A stretch of DNA of 64,000 nt. Origin: Bacteroidetes bacterium GWF2_33_16. Lineage in GTDB: Bacteria; Bacteroidota; Bacteroidia; Bacteroidales; UBA12077. The first letter of the stretch is position 1. Every line of letters begins with the position of its first letter. A program made the position numbers and the translations under genes. Location of the stretch: assembly GCA_001768565.1 (NCBI GenBank), contig MEOE01000001.1, positions 186,001 through 250,000 on the forward strand, in the 5' to 3' direction. Under the pieces are notes generated by a model. It did not search any database. It was not told the DNA's origin and worked only from the letters and a program-made list of their open reading frames with translations. This document shows positions 27,468 through 45,229 of this stretch, piece after piece.

Positions 27468-30400
27468 CTATTCTTTTATAATTTTAGCTTTCTGAATTAA
27501 TTTCTTTTCTCTGTTTTTTATCAAAACAATATAAGTTCCTTTGGTAAGCTCTGAAATATTTATTGAATTTTCTGTTGATTCCAAAACTTTTGTTCCTGAA
27601 AGATTAAAAAACTCAACAAATAACTCTTTATCATAATCAATTCGTATATTTTCATTTGCTGGATTTGGATAAATAACAATATTTGAACTATCAATATCTG
27701 CCATTCCAGTTGGGATATAAATTACTTCTATAGTATCATAAAGAGAAACTGATCCACAATTATTTAATGCCTTTAACCGAACATTATATGTTCCTAACTT
27801 GGGATAAACATGAATTGGGTTATTAAGGAATGAAAATCCCCCATCACCAAAATCCCAAAAGTAATTATTACTGTTTGCCGAGGTATTTGTAAAAAACACT
27901 TTAACACTATCACACTCATAGCTAAAATCAGGCAGTGCAATAGGAATTATACTTAAAGTTGTTTCTATAATACTATCGCAACCATTAACAGCAACAAAAT
28001 TACTAGTATGAACAATTGTTTCTGTAATATTATATCGAATACTCCCATCTGGGAAGGTATAATTTGATCTTTCACAAATAGACACACTCTCAGAATGATT
28101 ATATACTTGATCGCAATCACTTACATTAAGGGTAGTTATAATGATACTATCACAACCAAAAACAGTTTGTAAATTGCTCGTATAAACTACCTGATGAGTA
28201 ATGTTATTTTGAACAGTGCCATCAGGAAAGGTATAACTTTCACCACTATTTATTATAAAAGTTTCATCAATTTCAAAAATTGGATTAATATAAATAAGTG
28301 TTACATAAACCGTATCAAAACCATAATCCGAAGGAATGATAAATTCGTGGTAAATCTCAGAAGTAATATTTGTATCAGTTGTACCATCAATAAAAGTAAA
28401 GTCGGAACCATAACAAACACCTACAGTGTCAACATAATAATGGTAATCATTTTGAATATTTAAAGTGGTTTCAATTATACTATCACAGCCTAAATACGTT
28501 TGTAAGTAGCTATTGTAGGTTACAGATTCCATAATATTGTCTTGAGAAGTTCCATCCGGGAAAGTATAACTTTCACCAAAATTAATACTGATAACTTCTG
28601 ATGAATTATATATTGGATTTAATTGAACTGTAGTTTCAATAATACTATCACAACCTGTAATAGATTGCAAATAACTATTATATACAATCGGAGAAGCTAA
28701 GTTTTCCACTACATTACCATCAGGAAATGTATAAGAATCTCCAGTGCATGCAAAAACAGTTTCAGTGATTAAATAGTTTTCATAAACAGTTAATGTAGCA
28801 ACTCCTGTTGTATCAGTCAATGTTCCGGAAATTATTCCACGATACCGTACACCATTCATTTCAATATTTACGTTTGGAATAATTAAGGTATCATTGTTTT
28901 CGCCATCAAGATTTTGCCATAAAACACCTTTGTTTTCTTGCCATTGAATAGTGCTTCCCTCATCGTAATTGACAACTGCTAAAATAGCTTCGTCTCCCTC
29001 ACAAACTTTATCTTTAACCTTTACCAGTTTATCTTGTTTATAAAAAAAGACAGAACCGCTATTTTCATTAGTACTAAAATCATCCATATATGCCCCAACA
29101 AGTAAATTATCATGTGAAAGGCTAATAGCAGTTCCAAATTTATCATCAGTTACTCCATTTGGAGAATTAATTTTTACAGATTCAGTTCCAGAGATCCACT
29201 TCTTGCCATTTTCTTTCAAATAAATGTATACAGAACCTATTTTTACATTGTGGTAATTATATGGATTAGTTCCAATTACGATCCTATTTTCTGATATATC
29301 CACTGATGAACCAAAATTTTCTTCGAACACATGAGTTGAAGGTATTAGCTTCGCGATTTCAGTTGTATCTTTCCATCCACTATTTGGTTTTTCAAAAACG
29401 TAAGCGGAACCTATATATATACCATTCCCAACTGATTCACTTAATCCATTCGCTCCGACAACAACACAATTCTCAAAACAACTTACTGATTTTCCAAAAT
29501 ATGCACTAGATTTTCCATCAGAAGGAAGAAGTTCTGCTGTTTGTGTTGTGTCTACCCAGCCACCTGCAGGTCTCTCGAACAAGTATGCAGAGCCACTTCG
29601 TGCCCCATTATCATCATCATCAACAGCTCCTGTAATTATCAAGTTACCTGAAATACTTACAGTACCTCCTATACCATCGTTAATATCTGTAGTAATAAGT
29701 CTTGCTGTTTCTGTTGTATCTTTCCAACCAATAACTGGTTTTGTGTAAACATATACAGAGCCTGAATACTGGTTATAATAATAATGACCAGGTGCTCCAA
29801 CAACCACCTGATCATTAGAGATATCTACGGAAGCTCCATATGCATCATTACTTCTTCCATCATTTGATACTATCTTTGCTGTTTCATTCATATCGTGCCA
29901 ACCATCTACTGGTTTTGAAAAAATATAGGCAGCTCCGCCTCGTTCTCCAAATTTATTTTTAGCATTAATAGAACCAATTACAATCTCATTTGCTGAAATG
30001 CTTACAGAATATCCAAGCTCATCATAATAATCTCCATCTGATGCTGTTAATCTTCCTAAAGTAATCCATTCACGACCATTAAAATGCAAGACATATGCAC
30101 ACCCAGTTTTATTATGATAATGTGTTGCACCTACAACAGCATAATTACCATCTATTGAAACTGAAAAACCATAGTTATCGTCATCGGTATTGGGATCATT
30201 AGGTAAAACTGTAAAGTCTTCAGAACCATTTATCCATCCTGTGGCAGGTTTTTTAAAATAATATATCCCATTATCAAATATGCCTTTTTGTTCATCAATA
30301 AGAATATTATCTCCTGAAATACTTACAACCCTTCCAAAACCTCCACTAACACTGGCATTAGACGCTGTAAACTTTGCTGTTTCTGTCATATTTGACCAAT

Positions 30401-31493
30401 CGGTAGCGGGCATTTCAAAAATATAAACAGAACCTTCATTATTATAAGTTGCAAGTATATCATCATAACTTGCACCTATAATAACCGTATTACCTGAAAC
30501 ATCACCAGCATTCCCAAAGTTGTCATTATTAAGTCCATCCGAAGATATTAATTTAGCAGTTTCTGACATGTTAGTCCACCCGGTTGATGGTTTCTTATAA
30601 AGATAAGCCGCACCACTATTGTTAACGACTCCATTTGCATGAGCTGCACCAGCCACAATCAGATTTTCTGAAATACTTACAAAACATCCAAAATCACCAC
30701 GATTAATATCAGAAGCAAAAAGAGAAGCAGTTTCAGTTGTATCTTTCCATCCACCTATGGGTTTTTGAAAAACATATACAGCTCCAGTATCATTATGATT
30801 ATATGCACCAATTACAATATGATCCATATAACTGTCGATTGAAAAGCCAAAAGAACTTTCACTTTCTCCATCAGAAGCTTTAAGGATGGCCGTTTCTGTG
30901 GTATCTTGCCATCCATCAAATGGTTTTTCAAAAACGTAAACAGAACCACTGTTCCAACCATTTTTATCATCATTTGGAACACCAATGGCAATATAGTCAG
31001 ATTCAATTGTTACAGAATTGCCAAATAAATCGTCACTTTCACCATCTGAGGCAACAAGCTTTGCTGTTTCAGTCATATCCTGCCAACCCATTGCCGGTTT
31101 TTCGTAAACATATGCAGCACCAATTCTATATCTATACTCACCTTCTATTTCACCTTTGTCATATGGAGCTCCAACTACTGCAACATCGCCTAAAATGCTT
31201 ACTGAATATCCAAACCATTCAGTTTTATCAGAAAATGTAAGTTTTGCTTGAGTTTCCCAATCGGTTCCATTATAATGTAAAATAAATGCACAACCCTTAA
31301 AATCCTTATATTTATATGCACCTACTATTGCATAATCTCCATCTACACATATGGATGACCCAAAATTATACGTATGATAATTATCATATGGAACAGGTAG
31401 CGCTTTTGTAATTTCCAACCATTCTTGAGCTCTTGATTGTGAAACAATTATAAAGGTAAAAAAGCAAATTAAAACAAATAAATGTTTTTTCAT
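27468..31493 (-). CDS. Giant secreted FG-GAP double-propeller protein with T9SS sorting domain
   Basis: A 1341-residue secreted protein: signal peptide (ends QSRAQEW); fourteen FG-GAP-like blades starting near residues 44, 94, 157, 215, 268, 326, 386, 441, 493, 552, 609, 666, 727 and 786, that is two seven-blade propellers; an Ig-like segment (about 825-905); five modules of YTFPDG ... GCDSIIETT type (about 905-1180); a PKD domain with YFWDFGDGG; and a C-terminal T9SS type A sorting domain (YPNPANENIRIDY ... GTYIVLIKNREK). Blades 1 and 8 share an extra feature (GCAFILHYNGTDW and GCAYVLHFNGREW), so the second propeller looks like a tandem duplicate. It is probably a surface adhesin or binding protein exported by T9SS. 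Ligand unknown. Confidence 0.88.
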   Translation of the reverse strand: MKKHLFVLICFFTFIIVSQSRAQEWLEITKALPVPYDNYHTYNFGSSICVDGDYAIVGAYKYKDFKGCAFILHYNGTDWETQAKLTFSDKTEWFGYSVSILGDVAVVGAPYDKGEIEGEYRYRIGAAYVYEKPAMGWQDMTETAKLVASDGESDDLFGNSVTIESDYIAIGVPNDDKNGWNSGSVYVFEKPFDGWQDTTETAILKASDGESESSFGFSIDSYMDHIVIGAYNHNDTGAVYVFQKPIGGWKDTTETASLFASDINRGDFGCFVSISENLIVAGAAHANGVVNNSGAAYLYKKPSTGWTNMSETAKLISSDGLNNDNFGNAGDVSGNTVIIGASYDDILATYNNEGSVYIFEMPATDWSNMTETAKFTASNASVSGGFGRVVSISGDNILIDEQKGIFDNGIYYFKKPATGWINGSEDFTVLPNDPNTDDDNYGFSVSIDGNYAVVGATHYHNKTGCAYVLHFNGREWITLGRLTASDGDYYDELGYSVSISANEIVIGSINAKNKFGERGGAAYIFSKPVDGWHDMNETAKIVSNDGRSNDAYGASVDISNDQVVVGAPGHYYYNQYSGSVYVYTKPVIGWKDTTETARLITTDINDGIGGTVSISGNLIITGAVDDDDNGARSGSAYLFERPAGGWVDTTQTAELLPSDGKSSAYFGKSVSCFENCVVVGANGLSESVGNGIYIGSAYVFEKPNSGWKDTTEIAKLIPSTHVFEENFGSSVDISENRIVIGTNPYNYHNVKIGSVYIYLKENGKKWISGTESVKINSPNGVTDDKFGTAISLSHDNLLVGAYMDDFSTNENSGSVFFYKQDKLVKVKDKVCEGDEAILAVVNYDEGSTIQWQENKGVLWQNLDGENNDTLIIPNVNIEMNGVRYRGIISGTLTDTTGVATLTVYENYLITETVFACTGDSYTFPDGNVVENLASPIVYNSYLQSITGCDSIIETTVQLNPIYNSSEVISINFGESYTFPDGTSQDNIMESVTYNSYLQTYLGCDSIIETTLNIQNDYHYYVDTVGVCYGSDFTFIDGTTDTNITSEIYHEFIIPSDYGFDTVYVTLIYINPIFEIDETFIINSGESYTFPDGTVQNNITHQVVYTSNLQTVFGCDSIIITTLNVSDCDQVYNHSESVSICERSNYTFPDGSIRYNITETIVHTSNFVAVNGCDSIIETTLSIIPIALPDFSYECDSVKVFFTNTSANSNNYFWDFGDGGFSFLNNPIHVYPKLGTYNVRLKALNNCGSVSLYDTIEVIYIPTGMADIDSSNIVIYPNPANENIRIDYDKELFVEFFNLSGTKVLESTENSINISELTKGTYIVLIKNREKKLIQKAKIIKE

Positions 31494-33377: not shown

Positions 33378-34715
33378 TTAGATAACACCTTGATCGAGCA
33401 TGGCGTTTGCGACTTTAAGAAATCCAGCAATATTTGCACCTTTAACGTAGTTAACATAACCTGTTGAATCTTTGCCATTTTTAACACAAGCCTCGTGAAT
33501 ACTTATCATAATTTGATGTAATCGAGCATCCACTTCTTCACTTGTCCAGCTAAGTTTCATTGAGTTTTGTGACATTTCTAAACCTGAAGTAGCAACACCA
33601 CCAGCATTAGCGGCTTTACCTGGTCCGAATAATATTTTGTTTTTCAAAAATACCTCAACTGCTTCAGGAGTACATGGCATATTTGCTCCTTCTGAAACGC
33701 AAACTACTCCATTTTTAACTAACATTTCGGCATCTTCTTTTCCTAATTCGTTTTGTGTAGCGCAAGGAAGAGCGATATCAACTTTTTGCTCCCAAGGACG
33801 TTTTCCTTCATAGAACTGTCCACTCTGGAACTGATACGAGTAAGGTTTAACAATATCTTCATTTGATGCTCTTAGTTCAAGCATAAAATTTATTTTTTCT
33901 CCAGATATTCCTTCTGGATCGTAAATATAACCATCTGGACCAGAAATAGTAACAACTTTAGCTCCTAACTCAGTTGCTTTGGTAACTGCACCCCAAGCAA
34001 CGTTTCCAAAACCTGAAACAGCAACAGTTTTGCCTTCGAACGATGATCCTTTGGTTGCTAACATTTCTTTTGCAAAATACACATTACCAAATCCAGTAGC
34101 TTCCGGACGAACTAAACTTCCGCCCCAGTTAAGTCCTTTTCCTGTTAATACACCAGTATTTTCTCTTGCCAGTTTTCTATACATTCCAAACAAATACCCT
34201 ATTTCGCGACCACCAACACCAATATCACCAGCAGGAACATCAGTTTCAGGACCAATAATTTTCCATAACTCTAGCATTAGAGATTGGCAAAAACGCATAA
34301 CTTCAGCTTCTGATTTTCCTTTTGGGTCAAAGTCGGATCCACCCTTACCTCCACCCATAGGTAATGTTGTTAATGAATTTTTGAAGATTTGTTCAAAACC
34401 AAGGAATTTAAGAATACTTAAATTTACACTTGGGTGAAAACGAAGACCGCCTTTATATGGGCCAATAGCATTATTAAACTGAATTCTATAACCAAGATTT
34501 ACCTGAACTTTACCATTATCATCAACCCATGGCACTTTAAAAGTCAAAATTCGATCAGGCTCTACCATTCTTTCAATTATACCAGCACTCTCAAATTGTG
34601 GATTTTGATTATAAACATCCTCAATTGACTCTAATACTTCTCTAACGGCCTGAAGATATTCTGCTTCACCCGGATGCTTTCTTTCAAGCTGAACCATTAA
34701 TTTATCTACATTCAT
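33378..34715 (-). CDS. gdhA: NADP-type glutamate dehydrogenase
   Basis: A 445-residue hexameric-type glutamate dehydrogenase of normal length. Glutamate-binding GGLRFHPSVN, the catalytic Lys in PMGGGKGGSDFDPKGKS, DIGVGGREIGYLFGMYRK and the Rossmann segment VSGFGNVAWG are all present. It assimilates ammonia into 2-oxoglutarate, or runs in reverse. The leader contains a 9-base inverted repeat (34748-34756 and 34772-34780). It is monocistronic, with promoter and terminator. Confidence 0.95.
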   Translation of the reverse strand: MNVDKLMVQLERKHPGEAEYLQAVREVLESIEDVYNQNPQFESAGIIERMVEPDRILTFKVPWVDDNGKVQVNLGYRIQFNNAIGPYKGGLRFHPSVNLSILKFLGFEQIFKNSLTTLPMGGGKGGSDFDPKGKSEAEVMRFCQSLMLELWKIIGPETDVPAGDIGVGGREIGYLFGMYRKLARENTGVLTGKGLNWGGSLVRPEATGFGNVYFAKEMLATKGSSFEGKTVAVSGFGNVAWGAVTKATELGAKVVTISGPDGYIYDPEGISGEKINFMLELRASNEDIVKPYSYQFQSGQFYEGKRPWEQKVDIALPCATQNELGKEDAEMLVKNGVVCVSEGANMPCTPEAVEVFLKNKILFGPGKAANAGGVATSGLEMSQNSMKLSWTSEEVDARLHQIMISIHEACVKNGKDSTGYVNYVKGANIAGFLKVANAMLDQGVI

Positions 34716-34907: not shown

Positions 34908-35600
34908 CTAATACTTAACTATAACTTTCCATGATCCTTCTTTAATAATGATAAATTTCACATTACATTTAACTTCAAAAGTATTTAATCGGTTTAATGC
35001 AGTAAACTGCAACGATCCTTCAAAAGGAAAAGTTACACCTTCGAACCCAGAATAAGTTATAGACTTAGTTGATACACCACTATTATTTGACAACAATAGA
35101 TCATTAAAGTCCCTAACTTCTCTACCATCTCTGTTAAAAACGACTTCAATAGATCCAGGAATACCTCCCTGCTTTTCCATAATAGTAACACTTGTAACAT
35201 TAAGCATTTGTATAACTTTATATGGTAACTCAACTATTTCTCTTTCAAAGTTATCGTCTTTCCAAATACCATTTAACTTTTTATCTGTACTTGCTACATA
35301 AAGAGTACCCCTCCCATTCTTCTTTCCTGCTTTCCAATTACCTTCATAGTAGTCGCCATTAGCCCAAAAATATTTACCATTCCCATTAGGAAATCCCTCT
35401 TTAAACTTTCCTTCGTATTTATCAATACCTTGTGCTATACCTTTGCCATGAGCAAGACCATTTTTACAATCACCATTATACGATCCAGAAATGGATTCGA
35501 GTAACACTTTGCATTCATTAGATTCCTGAGCATTAGCTATAAAGCCTATTAATAATATAAAAACAAATAATACACTGTTTACAAGGATAGATTTTTTCAT
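34908..35600 (-). CDS. Secreted MORN-repeat protein
   Basis: A 230-residue protein with signal peptide (ends IANAQES). Residues of about 38-125 hold at least three MORN repeats (YNGDCKNGLAHGKG, YEGKFKEGFPNGNGKY, YEGNWKAGKKNGRG), followed by a beta-rich C-terminal domain of unknown type. MORN repeats bind lipids or proteins and occur in surface and periplasmic scaffolds. It lies 112 bases downstream of the second receiver-ATP-grasp gene on the same strand; cotranscription is possible but not shown. Confidence 0.85.
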   Translation of the reverse strand: MKKSILVNSVLFVFILLIGFIANAQESNECKVLLESISGSYNGDCKNGLAHGKGIAQGIDKYEGKFKEGFPNGNGKYFWANGDYYEGNWKAGKKNGRGTLYVASTDKKLNGIWKDDNFEREIVELPYKVIQMLNVTSVTIMEKQGGIPGSIEVVFNRDGREVRDFNDLLLSNNSGVSTKSITYSGFEGVTFPFEGSLQFTALNRLNTFEVKCNVKFIIIKEGSWKVIVKY

Positions 35601-35712: not shown

Positions 35713-38685
35713 TTATTTATTGGGTTTAAAAATTACCCCTTTTTTGTTTTTGCCATCAATCTGCACCATAATAGGATTCTCGAACCTTATATGTCTCAGA
35801 TATTTGTTTTCTGAGTATGCCTTATGGTTTGTAAGGAATTCGAGATCATAGAAACCATCATTTAGATATGGATTTATTGTAAAATAACCAACTCTGAATG
35901 ATGTCAAGTTTTGAAAGAAATGAGTACCTTGACTAGGATCAATTCGAAAGTTCTCTAAACCCGACTCAACAATAACCCTTGCCTGAGATATGTGAGCCCA
36001 TTTAACCGGAATTCCCAAATTTGGATCACTTGACCCCCATCTACCCGGTCCGACTAAAACATAATTCTTTTTTTCTTTTACAAACATTTCGTTTAATAAA
36101 CCTAACTCGATAGCTATTTTATCACTCTCGAGCGATTTAAAAGCATCTGGTTTTACGTAAACAAAATCGAAAATATCATCTATTCGACCATTTCCAAGTG
36201 CAGATTCGCAATATATAATAGTTTCTTCTTTTTTTGTCTCGTTCAGGTTAAGATTAGTAATCTGATCATTATCAACTATTGGCCGTATTTGCAAGAAATT
36301 GAAAACAACAGGTTCTCCTTTTTCTACATTTAGATCGACAGCAAATTCAATTTCAATAGGATTACTCATTTCTCTTTGCCCTATTTCAAGCAAGGTTCGC
36401 AATATTTCGGCTAGGGGAAAAGTTTCGTGCTTTAATATATTGGCAAACGTAATAATCCGTTTACCTTCATAGATTGTTCCATCTCGTAGAATGTTGTTCT
36501 GAAAATCATATGTTGATGCAGCAAATCGCAATGAGGAATCATTTTCAGCATCTTTAATATCATATTTATTAAGATTAATGCCATCGTCGGGTGATGGAAT
36601 AAACTTAGTAGGACACATGTCTAATGCATAAAATGTTTTTTGCGAATCTTTTAATGCAAATTCGGGAGATGAAAGCTGTAATATTTTTTTAGGATGCTTA
36701 GGTGAAAATCTTAATGACACACCTCCATCAACTATTTGTTTTCCTAATCCATAGGCAATATTCGCAATTCCATCTTCGTGTTTCTCGGGATCAATAGGGT
36801 AAAAATTTATAGATCGTGCAACACCTGAGATTGTTGGATAGAATTTATTTCCAAATTGCTTACCACAAACTTCCTGCAAAACAATTCCCATTTTTTCTTC
36901 ATCAATAACATTGGATGTTGCAGCCATATATGCTTTACTACTTTTAAAGTATACCGAGGCATATACTGATTTTATTGCATCGGAAAGCATTTTTATCATT
37001 AATGTGCCATTTTCTGTTTTTGGAATCATATAGGTTGAATATATTCCGGCAAATGGCTGATAATGTGAATCCTCAAGTTTCGATGACGATCGGATTGCTA
37101 ATGGATTTTGAACCACAGATATAAAAGCATATAAGTCTTGATAAACCCTACTGGGTAATTTTGCTTGAACAAAATAATCGAGTATTTCTTCATCTGATCT
37201 ATCTGACATTCCGATTTTGTACAAATCATTTTCTTCCATAAACTCATCGAAAATATCTGTGCTAAGCACAACCGTTCTCGGAATTGTAATAATAACACCT
37301 GGAAATCTATTAAAAATTTGATTTTTTTTAATAATTGAATTAACAAATGCTAATCCTCTGGCTTTACCACCGATAGACCCATCGCCTATTCGCGAAAAAA
37401 TAAGATACTCATCGAAACTATTTTTATCAAATTTAGCTATAATACCTCGGCCTTTGCTAATTCTATAACTCGAAATTGCGCGGTATATATATGTCCTTGC
37501 TTCTTTAAGGCTTTTAAAATCACCAAGAGTTAAATATTTAAATAATTGAGCAATTGGAAAAATAGCTCTTGCATTAAGCCATTTTGATAAATCATTTCGG
37601 CTTGCATGATACTCGAGAGAATTATCTGGAATTGTAAGTATCAGATTCTGTAATGCTTGTAAATCAGAAGCATGACCAATAGGTTTCATTGTATCTGGAT
37701 CCCGAAAAACAAACTCGCCAAAAGCAAATTGTTTTATAATATAATTTCTTAATTCAATGGATAAAGTTTTTGAGTATTTGTGAATAAATCCAACATTTAA
37801 TTCATCGGAATATTTCTTGTTTTCCATATCAGATGACTGCAGCAAGAATGGCATAAACTCATCATCTTCGCGAACTTTTTGGCATAATTTAATACCTGCC
37901 AGCTTGTCTTTTACACCTTTTCGTTTATAAGTAATATCCGAAATAATGCCAAGCATATTAAACCGGTACTTTTCATAAAGTTCTATTGCCTGTTCGTAAT
38001 TTGTGGCTAGCAAGATTTTTGGTCTTCCACGCATTCTCAGCATTTGCTGATGTTCATTTAATGCTTCGCGTATATATTCTTTCGATTGCTTTAATATAAT
38101 CTTGTAAATATTTGGGAGATAGGCTGAAATATATCGAATTGAATCTTCTATAAGCAAAATGGTTTGAACACCAACCACTTCAACATCATAGTTCACGTTC
38201 ATACGATCTTCAATAAGCTTTATTATTGCCACTAACAAATCGGCATTTCCTAACCAGCAAAAAACATAGTCGATAGCACTTAAATCTTCCTTCTCGAGGC
38301 GAACAGTAACTTCACGCGAAAAATGTGTTAACACAACTATTGGTATATTCGGATATAACTGTTTCATTTCGCGAGCAAAACTGAATGTATCTGAGCTACC
38401 AATTCGCAACATACTAATTACCAAATCGATATTTTCAGCTTTCATTATCTCAAACGCCTTTTCAGCTGTATTGGCCAATATAAAAATTGGTGGATATCGC
38501 AGGTTTAAAAGCACATACTCATTAAAGATCTGCTCATCAATACGACCATCTTCTTCGAGCATAAACGAATCGTAACTGCTAGCAATTAATAGCACTTTAT
38601 GAATTCTACGCTGCATTAAAAGGTTAAAAGATGTATCACCAAAATCTATTTTTAAACCATCTTGTTGATTTGTATAAAAACTCAT
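35713..38685 (-). CDS. Receiver-receiver-PEP-synthase ATP-grasp protein (short paralog)
   Basis: A 990-residue cytoplasmic protein. Domains: degenerate receiver (about 28-160, no phosphoacceptor Asp: DLVISMLRIG); second receiver (about 173-320) with Glu180-Asp181, Asp250 in GIISDITY, Ser284-Ser285 in LLQSS and Lys303 in IHKYS, all canonical; a link region; then the N-terminal ATP-grasp domain of PEP synthase / pyruvate phosphate dikinase (about 430-803: GGKARGLAF, PLAIRSSSKLEDS, FNFLQIRPI). The phosphohistidine domain and PEP-binding barrel are absent; instead a 185-residue C-terminal module with GPGRWGSSD and GTHFFQN follows. It is 23 bases after a longer paralog. No function is established. 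It may be a phosphotransfer or energy-sensing protein. Confidence 0.8.
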   Translation of the reverse strand: MSFYTNQQDGLKIDFGDTSFNLLMQRRIHKVLLIASSYDSFMLEEDGRIDEQIFNEYVLLNLRYPPIFILANTAEKAFEIMKAENIDLVISMLRIGSSDTFSFAREMKQLYPNIPIVVLTHFSREVTVRLEKEDLSAIDYVFCWLGNADLLVAIIKLIEDRMNVNYDVEVVGVQTILLIEDSIRYISAYLPNIYKIILKQSKEYIREALNEHQQMLRMRGRPKILLATNYEQAIELYEKYRFNMLGIISDITYKRKGVKDKLAGIKLCQKVREDDEFMPFLLQSSDMENKKYSDELNVGFIHKYSKTLSIELRNYIIKQFAFGEFVFRDPDTMKPIGHASDLQALQNLILTIPDNSLEYHASRNDLSKWLNARAIFPIAQLFKYLTLGDFKSLKEARTYIYRAISSYRISKGRGIIAKFDKNSFDEYLIFSRIGDGSIGGKARGLAFVNSIIKKNQIFNRFPGVIITIPRTVVLSTDIFDEFMEENDLYKIGMSDRSDEEILDYFVQAKLPSRVYQDLYAFISVVQNPLAIRSSSKLEDSHYQPFAGIYSTYMIPKTENGTLMIKMLSDAIKSVYASVYFKSSKAYMAATSNVIDEEKMGIVLQEVCGKQFGNKFYPTISGVARSINFYPIDPEKHEDGIANIAYGLGKQIVDGGVSLRFSPKHPKKILQLSSPEFALKDSQKTFYALDMCPTKFIPSPDDGINLNKYDIKDAENDSSLRFAASTYDFQNNILRDGTIYEGKRIITFANILKHETFPLAEILRTLLEIGQREMSNPIEIEFAVDLNVEKGEPVVFNFLQIRPIVDNDQITNLNLNETKKEETIIYCESALGNGRIDDIFDFVYVKPDAFKSLESDKIAIELGLLNEMFVKEKKNYVLVGPGRWGSSDPNLGIPVKWAHISQARVIVESGLENFRIDPSQGTHFFQNLTSFRVGYFTINPYLNDGFYDLEFLTNHKAYSENKYLRHIRFENPIMVQIDGKNKKGVIFKPNK

Positions 38686-38708
38686 AATAGTAGATTTTCA
38701 ATGTTCAT

Positions 38709-41700
38709 TTATTCATCAACTGTAATTGCCGATATTCGCTTACGACCATCCATGGTAATAATAATCGGCTTTACAAATCGAATGTGTTTAAAATATTTTG
38801 TTTCTTGAATTATTTTCTGCTTATTTAGAATATCCCAGCTAATAAAATCATTTATGTTTTGATGATTTATTGAAAAATATCCAACATTCATAGAAGTTAC
38901 GTTATGAAAAAAGTGAGAACCAAGCGAAGCGTCCAGAGGAAAATCCTCAAGACTAATTTCAACAATTATCTTTGCATTTGATATTTGAGGCCAAACTACT
39001 GGAATTCCTATAAAGCGATCTCTTGTTCCCCATCTTCCAGGTCCAATTAAAACATATTGCTTCCCCTCATCTCTCATTTTTGTATTCAACATCTCTATTT
39101 CGGAAGCCATTTCGTTCGTTTGTGTATTTTCAAACTTCTCAGGTATTGCAAAAATTATATCTGTTATACTTTGAACCCGCCCATTTCCCATTGTTTTTTC
39201 GGAATAAAGAATGGTTTTTTTATTTTTAATTTCGTCAAGATCAATAACATAATCGTCCTCGTTACATACCAATGGTTTGATCTGTAACAAATAGAATGAT
39301 GCCAATCCATTTTTATCCTTATTCAAATCGACTGCAAACTCGATTTCAACAGGTGATCCTAATGCTTCTTTAACAACATCGAGAATGATACTAATGGTTT
39401 TCGCTAATGGTATATGTCCAAATTTCAAAATATTTGCAAAATTTATTATTCGAGGGCCATAGGTTTCAATACCTGGGTTAATACGATCATTTTCTGCATC
39501 ATAAACCGAAGCTAAATGTTTTAAGGTATTGTGTTTTTCTGCATCGCTAACATCTAGTTTTATTAATCCGGCATCTTCGCCTTCCAGAAGATTCAGGTTT
39601 TCCTTTTTCAGGTCAACAGCATAAAAATAAACTTGTGAACTTTTAAATAAATCTTTAGACGAAATAATCTCGAGCTCAGGATATGCCGGAGAAAATCGAA
39701 AAGCTTTTTCTCCTTCAACAACATACTGACCTAATCCCAATGCAGCAACGGCAAAGCCTTCGTCGGGCTTCATATGTGCCACCGGGTAAAAATTATGAGA
39801 CTGAGCTGTTCCGCTAATATGTGGATAATAGCATCCATCAAAATGATTACCAACTACCTCCTGAATAATAATCGCCATTTTCTCCTCTTCAACTTTATTA
39901 TCGATTGCCTTAAAATAGTTACGTGCATGCTTTGAATATATTGATGCATAAACCAATTTTATTGCATCCATGGTTTCCTGTAAGCGTATATCAAAATCCG
40001 GATTATTATTTGGGAGTATATATGTTTCAAATATACCTGAAAAAGGCTGATTAATACTGTCTTCAAACAAACTTGATGATCTAATAGCAAGTGGTTTTGT
40101 AATTAATTTTAGATAAATTTTTAATCGTTTTTTTAATGTATAAGATAATTCACCCTTTAAAAAAGCCTTTCTTAATTCAGAATAATCTGTTTCGTTAAAA
40201 ATTGTCTCTTCAAGCTTATTTGCTTCAATAAACATATCAAACTCATCAGTTCCAAGAATGCTTGTTCTGGGCGTTCGCACATTAATAAGTGGCAGAAGCT
40301 CCTGAAATTTAAAATTATAGATAAGGGTATTAATAAATGCCAAACCACGGCCTTTTCCGCCTAAAGATCCTGTTGCCAGACTTACAATATTATTTTCCTC
40401 GAGAATTGCTGTTTCACTAAAATTAACAATTTTCCCTTTCTCCTGCTCATTTCTGTATAGTTTGAGAATATTGATTAAAAAATCTCGAAGCTGCTGAGTG
40501 CTTTCAAAATCACTAATACGAAGAGGATTTATTATTTTTGCAATTTGTATTTCACCTCGCGCCATTAACCAAAGCGAAAACTGGTTCTTAACAGCATGAT
40601 AAATAAGCGAATCATCGGGGACCGTTTTAAGATATGATTCAAACTCAGCCATGGATTTTGCAACTGCAATTTGCCTTCCTTGATTATCGCGATAAACGAA
40701 ATGGCCAAAACCAAGATGATAAGTAATAAAACTTTTCAAGTCTTGCAATAAACTTTCAGAGTTTTTATTTATAAAATTCGTTTTTAATTCGTATGATTTC
40801 TTTGCATTATCAGGGTTTGATGATTGCAAAACCGTAGGTAAGTTAGGCACATTCTCCCGAACAAATTTGATAAGTTCAAATCCGGCATCCTCGTCCATTT
40901 TCCCTTCGCGAGGAAAACTAACATCAGAAATAACACACAGAAAATAATCTTTATACTGGTTAAAAATCAACATTGCCTCTTCATAATTACTTGCAAGAAG
41001 TATCTTAGGTCTGGCACGCATTTTAAGTACCTTGTATAAATCGTCAGTATTTACATCTTCAATAAGTCGGCGCGTTTGTTCCATTATAATCTTATAGAGC
41101 ATTGGAAGATACCGTGAATAATATTTGGCCGAATCTTCCACAAGTAGAATCACTCTAGTAAGTCCTCCCTGTGTATCATTTTCAACATTTACCTGATCTT
41201 CGATGAGTTTGACCATGGCAAAAAATACTTTCGAGTCGCCATTCCAGATAAAAACTTTATCAATAGATGAAAGATCTTTTTTCTGCTCTTCAAGTATAGA
41301 TAAATCACTATTATTATTGAGCAACAAGAACATAGGAATATACTTGTACTTTGATTTGAGAGTATGACTAATTTTAAGCGGGGTTTTTTTATCAACTCCC
41401 ATCATTAAAATAACCAGATCAAAATGTTTGTATTCAAGTGCTTCTATTGCTTCATCCTCGGTTGAAACACCTGTAACCCGTGGAAGTGAAGTAAGATTCA
41501 ATTGGTGATATTCACCCAAAATATGATCTGTAAACCGCCCTTCTTTTTCAATGCTGTATGCATCGTAAAGATTTGCAATAAGGAGAATCTCCTTTACCTT
41601 AAATGGCATTAAATCATGTAACTGGTCCCTATCTGAATTGTGCTTATTTAAAAATTTTTGTAACAGTTGTCTACTATTAAGCACCTTTTCCTGCGATTGC

Positions 41701-42167
41701 CCTACAACACCAGATTTAGGTTTGGAGATTTCTTGTTTCCGAATTATGTTTTTTGCTTTAAGGCTATTTATATAACCGACAAATAAATTTGCTAGATTAT
41801 TAATAAGATCTCTTTCTTCCTTTAAAAAAGGCCCCTCGAAGACTTTGGAAAAATCTTTGGTATAAAAAACCTCAACAGTTCCTTCTTCTCCATCAATTGC
41901 CTGAAAGGTTTGTTTTTGACTCCAATCTGTTTCTAAAAAACCTGGACTTAAATAGTTTATTCCTCCAAATTGTATTCTGGCAACAGTATAATCAGGATAT
42001 TGCCATGCTTTTGGCATTATAAGTACTACCTTTTGTAAAGTTTCTTCAATGGACTTGCCTTCTTTAATAATCGTAGATGTTTGATTTATGCACGAAAGTT
42101 CCTTAAGGCGTTCTTTGTTCTCGGCAAGTAATCTGCTCAATTCTTTAGGATCCATAGAGTCAATCAT
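38709..42167 (-). CDS. GAF-receiver-receiver-PEP-synthase ATP-grasp protein (long paralog)
   Basis: An 1152-residue cytoplasmic protein of the same design as its neighbour, plus an N-terminal coil and GAF-like sensor (about 15-135). The first receiver (about 190-325) lacks the phosphoacceptor (LVILMMGV). The second (about 337-485) is complete: Glu344-Asp345, Asp415 in VISDVSF, Ser449-Ser450 in LQSS and Lys468 in INKNS. It contains a long insert between the acidic pair and the acceptor Asp. The ATP-grasp part (about 595-967) has GGKGRGLAF, PLAIRSSSLFEDS and LLQIKPLV; the C-terminal module has GPGRWGTRD and GSHFFHN. No phosphohistidine or PEP-binding domain. First of a two-gene operon, downstream of korAB but past a strong terminator. 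Confidence 0.8.
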   Translation of the reverse strand: MIDSMDPKELSRLLAENKERLKELSCINQTSTIIKEGKSIEETLQKVVLIMPKAWQYPDYTVARIQFGGINYLSPGFLETDWSQKQTFQAIDGEEGTVEVFYTKDFSKVFEGPFLKEERDLINNLANLFVGYINSLKAKNIIRKQEISKPKSGVVGQSQEKVLNSRQLLQKFLNKHNSDRDQLHDLMPFKVKEILLIANLYDAYSIEKEGRFTDHILGEYHQLNLTSLPRVTGVSTEDEAIEALEYKHFDLVILMMGVDKKTPLKISHTLKSKYKYIPMFLLLNNNSDLSILEEQKKDLSSIDKVFIWNGDSKVFFAMVKLIEDQVNVENDTQGGLTRVILLVEDSAKYYSRYLPMLYKIIMEQTRRLIEDVNTDDLYKVLKMRARPKILLASNYEEAMLIFNQYKDYFLCVISDVSFPREGKMDEDAGFELIKFVRENVPNLPTVLQSSNPDNAKKSYELKTNFINKNSESLLQDLKSFITYHLGFGHFVYRDNQGRQIAVAKSMAEFESYLKTVPDDSLIYHAVKNQFSLWLMARGEIQIAKIINPLRISDFESTQQLRDFLINILKLYRNEQEKGKIVNFSETAILEENNIVSLATGSLGGKGRGLAFINTLIYNFKFQELLPLINVRTPRTSILGTDEFDMFIEANKLEETIFNETDYSELRKAFLKGELSYTLKKRLKIYLKLITKPLAIRSSSLFEDSINQPFSGIFETYILPNNNPDFDIRLQETMDAIKLVYASIYSKHARNYFKAIDNKVEEEKMAIIIQEVVGNHFDGCYYPHISGTAQSHNFYPVAHMKPDEGFAVAALGLGQYVVEGEKAFRFSPAYPELEIISSKDLFKSSQVYFYAVDLKKENLNLLEGEDAGLIKLDVSDAEKHNTLKHLASVYDAENDRINPGIETYGPRIINFANILKFGHIPLAKTISIILDVVKEALGSPVEIEFAVDLNKDKNGLASFYLLQIKPLVCNEDDYVIDLDEIKNKKTILYSEKTMGNGRVQSITDIIFAIPEKFENTQTNEMASEIEMLNTKMRDEGKQYVLIGPGRWGTRDRFIGIPVVWPQISNAKIIVEISLEDFPLDASLGSHFFHNVTSMNVGYFSINHQNINDFISWDILNKQKIIQETKYFKHIRFVKPIIITMDGRKRISAITVDE

Positions 42168-42344: not shown

Positions 42345-43373
42345 CTATTTTATCTCCCAAGTTTCACCACTATTGAGTAAATCGTCAACTGATTTTATTT
42401 TAGCAGTTTTCATTACTTCCAGTACCTGATCACGAACATTATCATCATAAGTTGAATCTTTCACATTACGGATAACACCTAATGCAACTGGAAATTCTGG
42501 ATATGCCATGTTTGCAAGCATCATATGAACTCCAGGATTTGCCTCAAAAGCATCATGTGTAAGAATATCATCCATCGAGAATCCTCCTTGCCCAATAGTA
42601 ACAACTTTTAGGCTAATTCCACTAAGGATAAGCCCTTTGTCACGATTCTTCCCAAATATCATTTTTTCGCCATGACGAAGAACTATTGTTCTGTCTTCAC
42701 GGTACTCCTTATCGATAACTAATGAATGTGTTTTATCATTGTAAATAACACAGTTTTGCAGTATTTCAACAACCGAAGTGCCATCATGCTTTGCAGCCTC
42801 TATCATTATCTCCGATGTTAATTTAACATCAACATCAATTGAACGGGCAAAGAATTTACCCTGAGCTCCAATAACCAATTCGCCCGGACGGAAAGGATGC
42901 TCAACTGTTCCGAATGGTGATGTTTTTGTAATGGAACCGAGCTTTGAGGTTGGAGAATATTGACCTTTAGTTAAACCATAAATCTCATTATTAAAAAGGA
43001 GAATATTGATATCAATATTACGACGAACGGCGTGAATAAAATGATTACCACCAATTGCTAAAGCATCTCCATCGCCTGTTATTTGCCATACACTTAATTT
43101 TGGATTGGCAACTTTCACACCTGTAGAAATTGCTGATGCCCGACCATGTATTCCATGAAATCCAAAGGTATTTACGTAGTACGGGAAACGACTTGAACAG
43201 CCAATACCTGAAACAAATACATAACGCTCTATATCGTAGTTAAGAGCATCCGATATCTCTGGAAGTGCTCTTTGCACTGCACTAAGAACTGCGTGGTCAC
43301 CACAACCTGGGCACCATCGTACTTCCTGATCACTCTTAAAATCTTGCGGAGTATATTTAAAATTTTCTGCCAT
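42345..43373 (-). CDS. korB: 2-oxoacid:ferredoxin oxidoreductase, beta subunit
   Basis: A 342-residue thiamine-diphosphate subunit. Cys residues for the 4Fe-4S cluster are in WCPGCGDHAVL and SGIGCSSRFPYY; the TPP-Mg motif is GDGDALAIGG followed by NNEIYGLTKGQ. With KorA it oxidatively decarboxylates 2-oxoglutarate to succinyl-CoA, or reductively carboxylates it, exchanging electrons with ferredoxin. Substrate is inferred from the two-subunit form typical of KorAB; pyruvate or branched oxoacids are possible. Two bases separate it from korA. Confidence 0.9.
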   Translation of the reverse strand: MAENFKYTPQDFKSDQEVRWCPGCGDHAVLSAVQRALPEISDALNYDIERYVFVSGIGCSSRFPYYVNTFGFHGIHGRASAISTGVKVANPKLSVWQITGDGDALAIGGNHFIHAVRRNIDINILLFNNEIYGLTKGQYSPTSKLGSITKTSPFGTVEHPFRPGELVIGAQGKFFARSIDVDVKLTSEIMIEAAKHDGTSVVEILQNCVIYNDKTHSLVIDKEYREDRTIVLRHGEKMIFGKNRDKGLILSGISLKVVTIGQGGFSMDDILTHDAFEANPGVHMMLANMAYPEFPVALGVIRNVKDSTYDDNVRDQVLEVMKTAKIKSVDDLLNSGETWEIK

Positions 43374-43375
43374 GA

Positions 43376-45229
43376 TTATTTGCTCTCCAAAATTTGATTA
43401 AATTTTTCAACTAATTCAACTACTGTGAATGGAAGACCCTGTACCTTATTAAACTGCAAATAGTTGTACTCTTGAAAGTTCATTCGTAGGTAATTAGCAA
43501 ATTGACCCATATTTAGTTCGCATACAACAATCTTTTTATAGCTTCCTAAGATTTCTTTTACGTTCTTTGGAAGTGGATTAAGATAATTAAATTGACATAA
43601 CGTAACACTTTTACCATTATCTCTCATCTCTTGAACAGCTGTTAGAAGATGTCCATATGTACCACCCCATCCAATTACAAGCAAATCGCCTTCATTATCA
43701 CCAAAAACCTCTTGTTGAGGAATAAATTCCTGAACTCTTTCTACTTTAGCGGCACGAATATCTGTCATTCTCTGGTGGTTAATCGGATCGTGTGATACGC
43801 TACCTTTAAGAAAATCCTTTTCGAGACCACCTACACGGTGCATAATACCCTTTTTACCAGGAAAAGCCCATGAACGTGCAAGTCTTTTTTCATCACGTGC
43901 ATAAGACATAAATCCTGTAGTTCCTTCAGCAACAATCGGAGGATTAATTGATGGATAATCCTTCATACTTGGAACCTTCCAAGGTTCTGTTCCATTGGCA
44001 ATATAACCATCGGTAAGCAAAACAACCGGAGTCATATGTTCCATTGTAAGTTTACCAGCAATAAATGCATAATCAAAACAATTACTTGGAGTGCTTGCAG
44101 CAATAACAATCATTGGACATTCCCCATTGCGACCAAATAAAACCTGAAAAAGATCAGATTGCTCAGTTTTAGTTGGCAATCCTGTTGATGGGCCACCTCG
44201 CTGAACGTCAACAATAACTAAAGGTAATTCAGTAATAACGGCCAAACCCATTGCTTCGCTCTTAAGCGAAAGACCTGGACCGGAGGTAGTTGTTACAGCA
44301 AAATTTCCTGCAAATGAAGCGCCGATTGCAGTACAAATTCCAGCAATCTCATCTTCAACCTGTAGTGTTTTTACACCAAGATCTTTGCGTTTTGCAAGCT
44401 CGATTAAAATCTCAGTAGCAGGAGTTATAGGATATGAGCCACAGAAAAGAGGCAATCCTGATTTCTCTGAAGCAGCAATTAATCCCCATGCAACTGCAGT
44501 ATTCCCATTGATATTACGATAAATCCCTTTTGGGGTATTTGAAGCTGGAGAAATCTGATATGTATTAGGAATTGCTTGAATATTTCCCGCATAGTTAAAA
44601 CCATCGCGAAGAACCTTTTTATTTGCTTCAACAATCTCTGGTTTTTTCTTAAACTTTGTTTCAAAGTACTTCTCAGTAAAATTTAATGGGCGTGAGAAAA
44701 TATAATATACCATACCAAGAGCAAACATATTTTTGCTTCTCAAAACACTCTTGTTATCAAGACCAGAGTCTTTTAGACTTTCTTTAGTTAATTCTGTAAT
44801 TTTTGCAAAAATTACCTTATAATCTTCAATTTTTAGCTCTTCAACTGGATTATTGGTTTTGAAACCAGCACGCAGAAGGCCTTTTTCATTAAAGGTGTCG
44901 TTATCAACAATAATCATTCCTCCAGGTTTTACCCACTTAACATTAGCTTTAAGCGCGGCTGGATTCATAGCCACTAACACGTCACAGTAGTCACCTGGAG
45001 TATGTACCTTTGAACTTCCAATGTTTACCTGAAAGCCGGAAACACCAGCAACAGTACCCTGAGGTGCTCGTATCTCCGAAGGATAATCTGGAAATGTACT
45101 GACACTATTTCCGAATAATGCAGATGCATCGGAAAACAATGTTCCAGTAAGTTGCATACCATCTCCAGAATCACCCGAGAACCGGATAACAACGTCATCT
45201 CTTTCGATGGCTTTTGCTTTTTTATCCAT
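43376..45229 (-). CDS. korA: 2-oxoacid:ferredoxin oxidoreductase, fused gamma-alpha subunit
   Basis: A 617-residue protein joining the gamma domain (about 10-190: RFSGDSGDGMQLTG, TFPDYPSEIRAPQGT) with the alpha domain (about 220-617: ASEKSGLPLFCGSYPITPATE, TTTSGPGLSLKSEAMGLA, DVQRGGPSTGLPTKTEQSDL). This fused form is the normal KorA of Bacteroidota. First gene of korAB. The 268-base region upstream holds a perfect 10-base dyad and a -7-like element. Confidence 0.9.
   Translation of the reverse strand: MDKKAKAIERDDVVIRFSGDSGDGMQLTGTLFSDASALFGNSVSTFPDYPSEIRAPQGTVAGVSGFQVNIGSSKVHTPGDYCDVLVAMNPAALKANVKWVKPGGMIIVDNDTFNEKGLLRAGFKTNNPVEELKIEDYKVIFAKITELTKESLKDSGLDNKSVLRSKNMFALGMVYYIFSRPLNFTEKYFETKFKKKPEIVEANKKVLRDGFNYAGNIQAIPNTYQISPASNTPKGIYRNINGNTAVAWGLIAASEKSGLPLFCGSYPITPATEILIELAKRKDLGVKTLQVEDEIAGICTAIGASFAGNFAVTTTSGPGLSLKSEAMGLAVITELPLVIVDVQRGGPSTGLPTKTEQSDLFQVLFGRNGECPMIVIAASTPSNCFDYAFIAGKLTMEHMTPVVLLTDGYIANGTEPWKVPSMKDYPSINPPIVAEGTTGFMSYARDEKRLARSWAFPGKKGIMHRVGGLEKDFLKGSVSHDPINHQRMTDIRAAKVERVQEFIPQQEVFGDNEGDLLVIGWGGTYGHLLTAVQEMRDNGKSVTLCQFNYLNPLPKNVKEILGSYKKIVVCELNMGQFANYLRMNFQEYNYLQFNKVQGLPFTVVELVEKFNQILESK

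Follow-up and report, generated by a model that had tools for sequence, protein, structure and literature searches.

Phosphoenolpyruvate (PEP) synthase, pyruvate phosphate dikinase (PPDK) and rifampin phosphotransferase act on small molecules, and PPDK is a full enzyme with a barrel. In phenylphosphate synthase, which belongs to phenol catabolism and comes without receivers or a link to glutamate dehydrogenase (GDH), a PEP-synthase-like enzyme is split, its donor and acceptor halves residing on separate polypeptides. Here we analyse 64,000 nucleotides from Bacteroidetes bacterium GWF2_33_16 (contig MEOE01000001.1, positions 186,001 to 250,000; this whole stretch is called the window, and coordinates below refer to it), in which two genes, P1 and P2, encode large proteins that place receiver domains in front of a PEP-synthase-type ATP-grasp domain. 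Relatives of these proteins are repeatedly encoded beside GDH. We propose, with a probability of roughly 45%, that P1 and P2 are dedicated partners of GDH: their donor half would phosphorylate itself on a histidine and pass the phosphate on in trans, tuning ammonia assimilation.

P1 and P2 are adjacent open reading frames (ORFs) on the minus strand, separated by a gap of 23 bases, and are paralogs of the lengths that an initial annotation, made from the sequence alone, had given them. Their parts are as follows.

35713..38685, minus strand: P1, 990 residues; pseudo-receiver, receiver, middle region, ATP-grasp and C-terminal phosphohistidine-like module
35716..36243, minus strand: P1 C-terminal module, phosphohistidine-swivel-like (residues 815-990)
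35920-35922, minus strand: codon of P1 His922; the P1 GPGRWG motif is at 36034-36051
36271..37413, minus strand: P1 ATP-grasp domain (PPDK_N), with invariant GGK 439-441, RSS 532-534, E780 and Q799
37426..37710, minus strand: P1 middle region (residues 326-420); weak similarity to DUF5752 in P2 only
37714..38169, minus strand: P1 receiver 2, intact (D250, S284, K303)
38203..38607, minus strand: P1 receiver 1, with Met92 in place of the phosphoacceptor Asp
38709..42167, minus strand: P2, 1152 residues; paralog of P1 (39% identity where the two overlap), extended at the N-terminus by a sensor-like segment
38712..39224, minus strand: P2 C-terminal module, with His1085 in GSHFF (residues 1083-1087)
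39252..40403, minus strand: P2 ATP-grasp domain, bounds from alignment
40698..41162, minus strand: P2 receiver 2, intact (D415), bounds approximate, by homology with P1
41628..42167, minus strand: P2 N-terminal sensor-like segment, the 'GAF' of the initial annotation; no Pfam GAF match

In the window, a GDH gene lies two genes downstream of the P1/P2 pair, and genes for a 2-oxoacid:acceptor oxidoreductase lie upstream of it.

33378..34715, minus strand: GDH (NF010633, 852 bits against a cut-off of 743), recurrent neighbour
34908..35600, minus strand: MORN-repeat protein of 230 residues, between P1 and GDH
42345-43373, minus strand: 2-oxoacid:acceptor oxidoreductase beta, upstream neighbour, recurrent in part of the Bacteroidales loci
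43376-45229, minus strand: 2-oxoacid:acceptor oxidoreductase alpha, upstream neighbour, recurrent in part of the Bacteroidales loci

The proximity to GDH is not peculiar to this genome. In a sample drawn from the phylum, GDH is found within 4.5 kb of at least 39 of 48 receiver-type copies, in at least 30 of 38 genomes and in ten taxonomic families, where chance proximity would amount to about 0.6% per copy (assuming 2.5 GDH genes per 3.8 Mb; the count omits the window's genome and divergent rows of a 1060-residue type). Note that the genomes are related so that 39 linked copies are not 39 independent events, yet the linkage recurs in ten families, in a further phylum and with two types of GDH. 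Among 40 gene clusters that were fetched, some of them hand-picked among the search matches, GDH is by far the commonest neighbour, present in 26 loci (8/20 from a sample of the window's order, 18/20 from the phylum sample), and of the 40 GDH-type ORFs that these clusters contain, 37 are no more than 450 bp away from a family gene; the next commonest neighbour cluster, NarL-kind response regulators (one checked), reaches 12/40. GDH comes first again in 80 named loci, which are biased to close relatives and include some short contigs: it occurs anywhere in 33 of them, the next cluster in 10.

Individual loci illustrate the pattern. In an annotated record of Parabacteroides distasonis, gdhA diverges from the family gene, and three genes intervene before a second NADP-specific GDH. 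Locus L215, from the genus Bacteroides, runs GDH, family member, catalase-like ORF (read from sequence alone), second GDH; the catalase-like ORF is the next gene downstream of this second GDH, and beyond it, on the opposite strand, comes the family member. In locus L088 the order is GDH, a Por-secreted protein, family member, a PAS/HisKA_3 kinase, a NarL-type regulator, an ammonium transporter, GDH, family member and an archaeal-type GDH.

Which part of the protein accompanies GDH can be read from the builds in which the family occurs: about 1000 residues with two receivers; about 580 residues, core only; and about 1060 residues, an N-terminal sensor segment followed by the core. In the phylum of a genome labelled Delongbacteria, GDH is present in 5 of 7 clusters, three of which are arranged as GDH-580-1060-phosphoesterase-FAM-GDH-FAM (FAM, family member). 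The receiver-less 580- and 1060-residue members adjoin GDHs of 428 residues that are about 32% identical to the one in the window. Of five neighbouring GDHs compared with NCBIfam, three exceed the cut-off for NADP-specific GDH; the other two, among them one of the 428-residue GDHs, come nearest to archaeal GdhA without reaching its cut-off. Different subfamilies have different types of GDH as their neighbours. Since the receiver-less core still sits beside GDH, it is the core, not the receivers, that goes with GDH.

Several observations weigh against reading this linkage as that of an enzyme and its dedicated regulator. Within the order sample, GDH lies within 5 kb in only 19 of 55 family genomes, three family genomes have no GDH match and three GDH genomes have no family member. 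As many as 269 of the 296 phylum genomes have GDH and only 49 match the C-terminal module, so that GDH does not need the family. Of the 80 named loci, 47 lack GDH, as do 14 of the 40 others. Finally, linkage would look the same whether GDH is the target or a pathway partner under shared regulation. Overall, we regard a functional tie of some kind between the family and GDH as very likely.

The family itself is widespread. Searches with P1 matched 56 of 60 genomes of the window's order, one of these matches being receiver-only, which leaves the family in 55; sorted by identity, 45 genomes carry a P1-like copy, 30 a P2-like copy and 20 both. This tally omits two N-terminal fragments and rows below 35% identity, which are mostly receiver-only and also comprise two whole or half members at 30-33% (G017:C234, G052:C483). 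Within the genus to which the Bacteroides genome G354 belongs, a single copy is found in 45 of 50 genomes. A scan of genome contigs gave at least 568 relatives, the best 80 of which all bear Bacteroidota names but for four records, three labelled Chlorobiota and one Candidatus Delongbacteria; in the phylum of the last of these, a family member is encoded by 12 of 13 genomes. No true relative was found among 20 viral pattern matches. Relatives occur in 3 of 72,556 plasmid records, all with Bacteroidales names. The Parabacteroides distasonis 'plasmid' NZ_OY725790.1 looks like a chromosome fragment labelled plasmid, because valine--tRNA ligase and ruvC are encoded on it along with two GDH genes. 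Database annotation of the family is generic ('PEP/pyruvate-binding domain-containing protein'). In the assembly from which the window comes (4.33 Mb), the three PPDK_N matches are P1, P2 and an ordinary PPDK of 911 residues (G000:C10), which is located elsewhere, carries PF00391 and has the motif GGMTSH.

The domain assignments of the initial annotation largely hold. Pfam finds PPDK_N, the ATP-grasp domain of PEP synthase and PPDK, in both P1 (E 2.3e-38) and P2 (E 6e-35), and the receiver profile matches above cut-off in P1 and weakly in P2. Searched by sequence against the PDB, P1 returns ten receiver rows and the ATP domain of rifampin phosphotransferase at E 0.99, P2 one chance row. Two receiver folds are evident in the P1 model, where solved receivers match at 27-161 and 173-324. 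As had been noted, the two differ: at the phosphoacceptor position of receiver 1, none of 104 aligned rows has Asp (M 79, T 14, W 4, A 3, L 2, I 2), and receiver 2 keeps its residues in the 104 rows that have it (E180 104, D181 100 with N in 4, D250 104, S284 104, K303 104). Between receiver 2 and the ATP-grasp domain lies a region of about 95 residues, in which DUF5752 matches P2 weakly (E 1.2e-4, below its cut-off). The described lack of a PEP/pyruvate barrel is borne out: no Pfam family for it matches P1 or P2, and the proteins end, at residues 990 and 1152, after the C-terminal module. The GAF sensor, a claim that attaches to P2, fared less well, with no Pfam GAF match to the P2 N-terminus at E<=0.5. 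Sequences related to that segment are found in another protein of the genome (32% over 17-133) and at the N-terminus of many family members. In P2-type proteins of loci L080, L121, L069, L070 and L067, the sensor-like segment is repeated two to four times, giving proteins of up to 1550 residues.

Conservation was assessed across 118 aligned proteins (144 before rows at least 80% alike were dropped); the alignments omit members of up to 560 residues and the split member in locus L101, and that of 118 also leaves out named-locus members of up to 940 residues and rows with X. Invariant throughout are, in the donor region, GGK439-441, RSS532-534, E538, D539, E780 and Q799 and, in the C-terminal region, N865, G881-R882-W883-G884, D887, G891, E907, S918, G920, H922, F923, F924 and Y934; position 801 has R in 92 proteins and K in the other 26. 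The GPGRWG and HFF motifs singled out by the initial annotation are present and nearly or fully invariant. We take the conserved PPDK_N residues GGK, RSS, E780 and Q799 to be the catalytic ones. Given these invariant residues, the ATP site and the C-terminal module alike appear to be chemically functional.

What, then, is the C-terminal module? The initial annotation held that there is no phosphohistidine swivel domain, leaving the ATP-grasp without a His acceptor, and that a 185-residue module stands in its place. The module exists, at about 170 residues, and its fold is most like a phosphohistidine swivel domain, which makes the first claim probably wrong by fold comparison. An AlphaFold2 model of P1 (mean predicted local distance difference test, pLDDT, 91.6; predicted template modelling score 0.87) was compared with PDB chains by applying VIA-align to the top 1000 from Foldseek. 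The best match of the whole model is rifampin phosphotransferase (Z 26.4, 284 residues), followed by PEP synthase, further ATP-grasp proteins, PPDK and then receivers; residues 418-989 align with 4-467 of PEP synthase 2ols (Z 25.9, root-mean-square deviation (rmsd) 4.5, 368 residues) and 428-990 on 7-512 of PPDK 1dik (Z 18.4). Modelled alone, the C-terminal 176 residues (pLDDT 93.9) match rifampin phosphotransferase 5fbu 757-867 first (Z 7.0, rmsd 3.1, 104 residues), then pyruvate kinase 2e28 475-584 (Z 6.8) and PPDK 5jvn (Z 6.7) and 1vbg (Z 6.6), with more rows of rifampin phosphotransferase and PPDK down to 1kbl (Z 5.7), then Enzyme I (5.6); rows for a chaperonin, an LD-carboxypeptidase-like protein and aconitase X are mixed in below. 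The matched domains belong to the 'swivelling beta/beta/alpha' fold class. The module also follows the ATP-grasp domain in the order of the PEP synthase His domain, and its one invariant His stands at a helix start, the matching place. Its succession of elements in the P1 model (strand 875-880, strand 902-908, GTH, helix 921-929, strand 933-938) resembles the one known to surround the TSH motif in PPDK, and we infer that His922 is the counterpart of the catalytic His of that enzyme.

Other comparisons pull in the opposite direction. The best Z of the isolated module, 7.0, falls below the value of 8 that VIA-align advises. PF00391 matches 0 of 118 members (HMMER filters drop most matches above E 0.1), Foldseek with the C-terminal module gives nothing at E<=0.001, its top rows being unrelated, and hhalign against the PPDKs of 30 loci gives nothing in the His region, a comparison of little power in which the ATP-grasp domain, a true relative, scored only 5.6% probability. 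The C-terminal match is therefore one of predicted fold, with sequence profiles silent. Taken together, the module is probably a very diverged phosphohistidine swivel domain, a conclusion of moderate strength. Fold comparison alone (Z 7.0-5.7) thus indicates the kind of cryptic phosphohistidine domain that the initial annotation had named beforehand as speaking against its proposal.

How might such a protein act on GDH? P1 and P2 appear to have kept the donor half of PEP synthase, an ATP-grasp and a diverged swivel domain, and to have lost the PEP/pyruvate half. Input would arrive via receiver 2, whose histidine kinase would be encoded at another locus or, as in some relatives, beside the family gene; in P2 the N-terminal sensor segment would be a further route. 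With ATP, the protein would then phosphorylate itself on His922 (P1) or His1085 (P2), from where the phosphate would pass in trans to another protein, most probably GDH itself or one that determines its activity; the flux of 2-oxoglutarate, glutamate and ammonia would thereby be tuned. Because the core stays by GDH with or without receivers, it would be the GDH-facing part, and receivers, sensor segment and nucleotidyltransferase would serve as inputs or additional outputs. We infer all three of His phosphorylation, GDH as the target and the sign of the effect. Phosphotransfer to a separate protein, which the initial annotation had suggested, is our best guess; that the family phosphorylates GDH directly is a guess of a more doubtful kind. 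Similarly tentative is the wider proposal of an undescribed protein-phosphorylation system, in which a receiver-controlled PEP-synthase donor half phosphorylates GDH and thereby governs ammonia assimilation in Bacteroidota, the genus Bacteroides among them. The initial annotation's 'new signalling system' survives as an uncharacterised signalling-type family with a PEP-synthase ATP-grasp; its main clue, the GDH neighbour, had been overlooked and emerged from the survey of neighbours that it had called for.

Other mechanisms might produce the same associations. P1 and P2 might be metabolic enzymes whose phosphohistidine phosphorylates or activates a small molecule of the 2-oxoglutarate/glutamate node under regulation by the receivers, with GDH a pathway neighbour, not the target. 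The nearest folds are those of PEP synthase, PPDK and rifampin phosphotransferase, and 2-oxoacid oxidoreductase genes, which precede P2 in the window, recur in 4 of the 40 fetched loci (all 4 among the 20 order loci) and, as clusters c3 and c4, in 8 and 7 of the 80 named loci. However, no third, substrate-binding domain is recognised, and neighbours other than GDH stay far below its frequency (next 12/40 and 10/80), so we consider this account unlikely. Alternatively, the proteins might be pseudo-enzymes in which ATP/AMP or a metabolite binds the ATP-grasp domain and GDH is affected allosterically, without phosphotransfer. A regulatory build with several extra domains and the missing PF00391 match would suit that idea; a decayed enzyme would hardly keep GGK, RSS, E538, D539, E780, Q799 and His922 in every aligned protein (the K that replaces R801 in 26 of 118 notwithstanding), and we think it quite improbable.

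Still less probable, in our view, is an internal phosphorelay, in which ATP-grasp and His922 would do the work of a histidine kinase, with Asp250 in receiver 2 of the same protein as the acceptor. That receiver is catalytically complete in nearly all 104 rows, and, in keeping with the initial annotation's remark that no kinase is encoded nearby, none is among the 17 window proteins scanned. Yet a PAS/HisKA_3 histidine kinase adjoins the family gene in L088 and L089, and the 580- and 1060-residue members have the donor half without receivers, still by GDH.

Regulation of GDH by the family, the reading that we prefer, also has points of contact with older work on Bacteroides. Reversible inactivation of the GDH of Bacteroides fragilis was reportedly described in the 1980s. 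The title of Baggio and Morrison (1996) announces a trans-acting effect on GdhA of a gene 'downstream of gdhA'. The gene order of L215 may fit these words, a suggestive but not an established match. BT_1971 is identified as a catalase in two papers. If B. thetaiotaomicron shares the L215 order, BT_1972 or BT_1970 would be the candidate family member. We take BT_1970 and BT_1973 to be the GDH genes, which points to BT_1972. PMC4539542 presents GDH as central in the nitrogen assimilation of B. fragilis and reports it as three gel spots; these would fit charge forms, although other explanations exist. Open-licence literature yielded no description or characterisation of the family, including passages of PMC4539542, PMC12000641, PMC12596196, PMC4595636, PMC5552732 and PMC10197588, and nothing on gdhX or reversible GDH inactivation.

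Further features of these loci deserve mention. The two proteins of the 1060-residue type that were scanned (L085 7648-10833, L162 6-3149) fuse the core to a C-terminal NTP_transf_2 nucleotidyltransferase, as most others do by similarity (none in L096, partial in L098), and the type often stands beside an archaeal-type GDH and a metallophosphoesterase, with which it possibly forms a nucleotidylation/de-nucleotidylation pair. In the window's genome, a 278-residue protein (L003; G000:C10, locus 184-1881) consists of the sensor segment and nucleotidyltransferase of this type without the ATP-grasp/His core; it adjoins a metallophosphoesterase whose close relatives stand beside the 1060-residue type in nine other clusters. 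Solitary P2-type genes in L067, L069 and L080 directly adjoin a response-regulator ORF of about 216 residues (cluster c1). Two candidate neighbours were rejected: an ammonium transporter occurs in only 2 of 120 loci scanned (L088, L081), and a 729-residue ORF in L168 that fits glutamine synthetase III by length is a DPP IV-type peptidase. Promoter and terminator counts in the window (69 against 61.3 in shuffles, 8 against 7.4) are close to the shuffles and thus do not settle operon structure. Elsewhere in the window, 27468-31493 encodes a 1341-residue protein with 12 FG-GAP_2 repeat stretches, a PKD domain and a Por secretion tail.

Bacteroidota rank among the principal inhabitants of the gut and of many anaerobic communities. 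A generically annotated protein that is present in 55 of 60 genomes of the window's order and travels with GDH in many lineages may help control ammonia assimilation there, and is a concrete candidate gene for the trans-acting effect on GdhA of the 1996 title; if our proposal is true, PEP-synthase chemistry would be put to a new use there, in signalling. Compared with known systems, P1 resembles PEP synthase (pyruvate, water dikinase; 2ols) in arrangement: there an ATP-grasp domain is followed by a phosphohistidine-type domain, as is probably the case in P1; unlike P1 and P2, PEP synthase has a PEP/pyruvate barrel, whereas P1 and P2 have receivers in front and a module that PF00391 does not see. 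Rifampin phosphotransferase (5hv1/5fbu) is the best match of both the whole P1 model and the isolated module but differs in domain order, its module-matching domain lying at 757-867, and no counterpart of its rifampin-binding part is seen in P1. In PPDK (1dik, 1kbl), the stretch from the ATP-grasp to the His domain aligns with P1, and the central His domain matches the isolated module with Z up to 6.7. With two-component response regulators, finally, the family shares a complete receiver, followed here by an ATP-grasp/His-type core, not by a DNA-binding domain.

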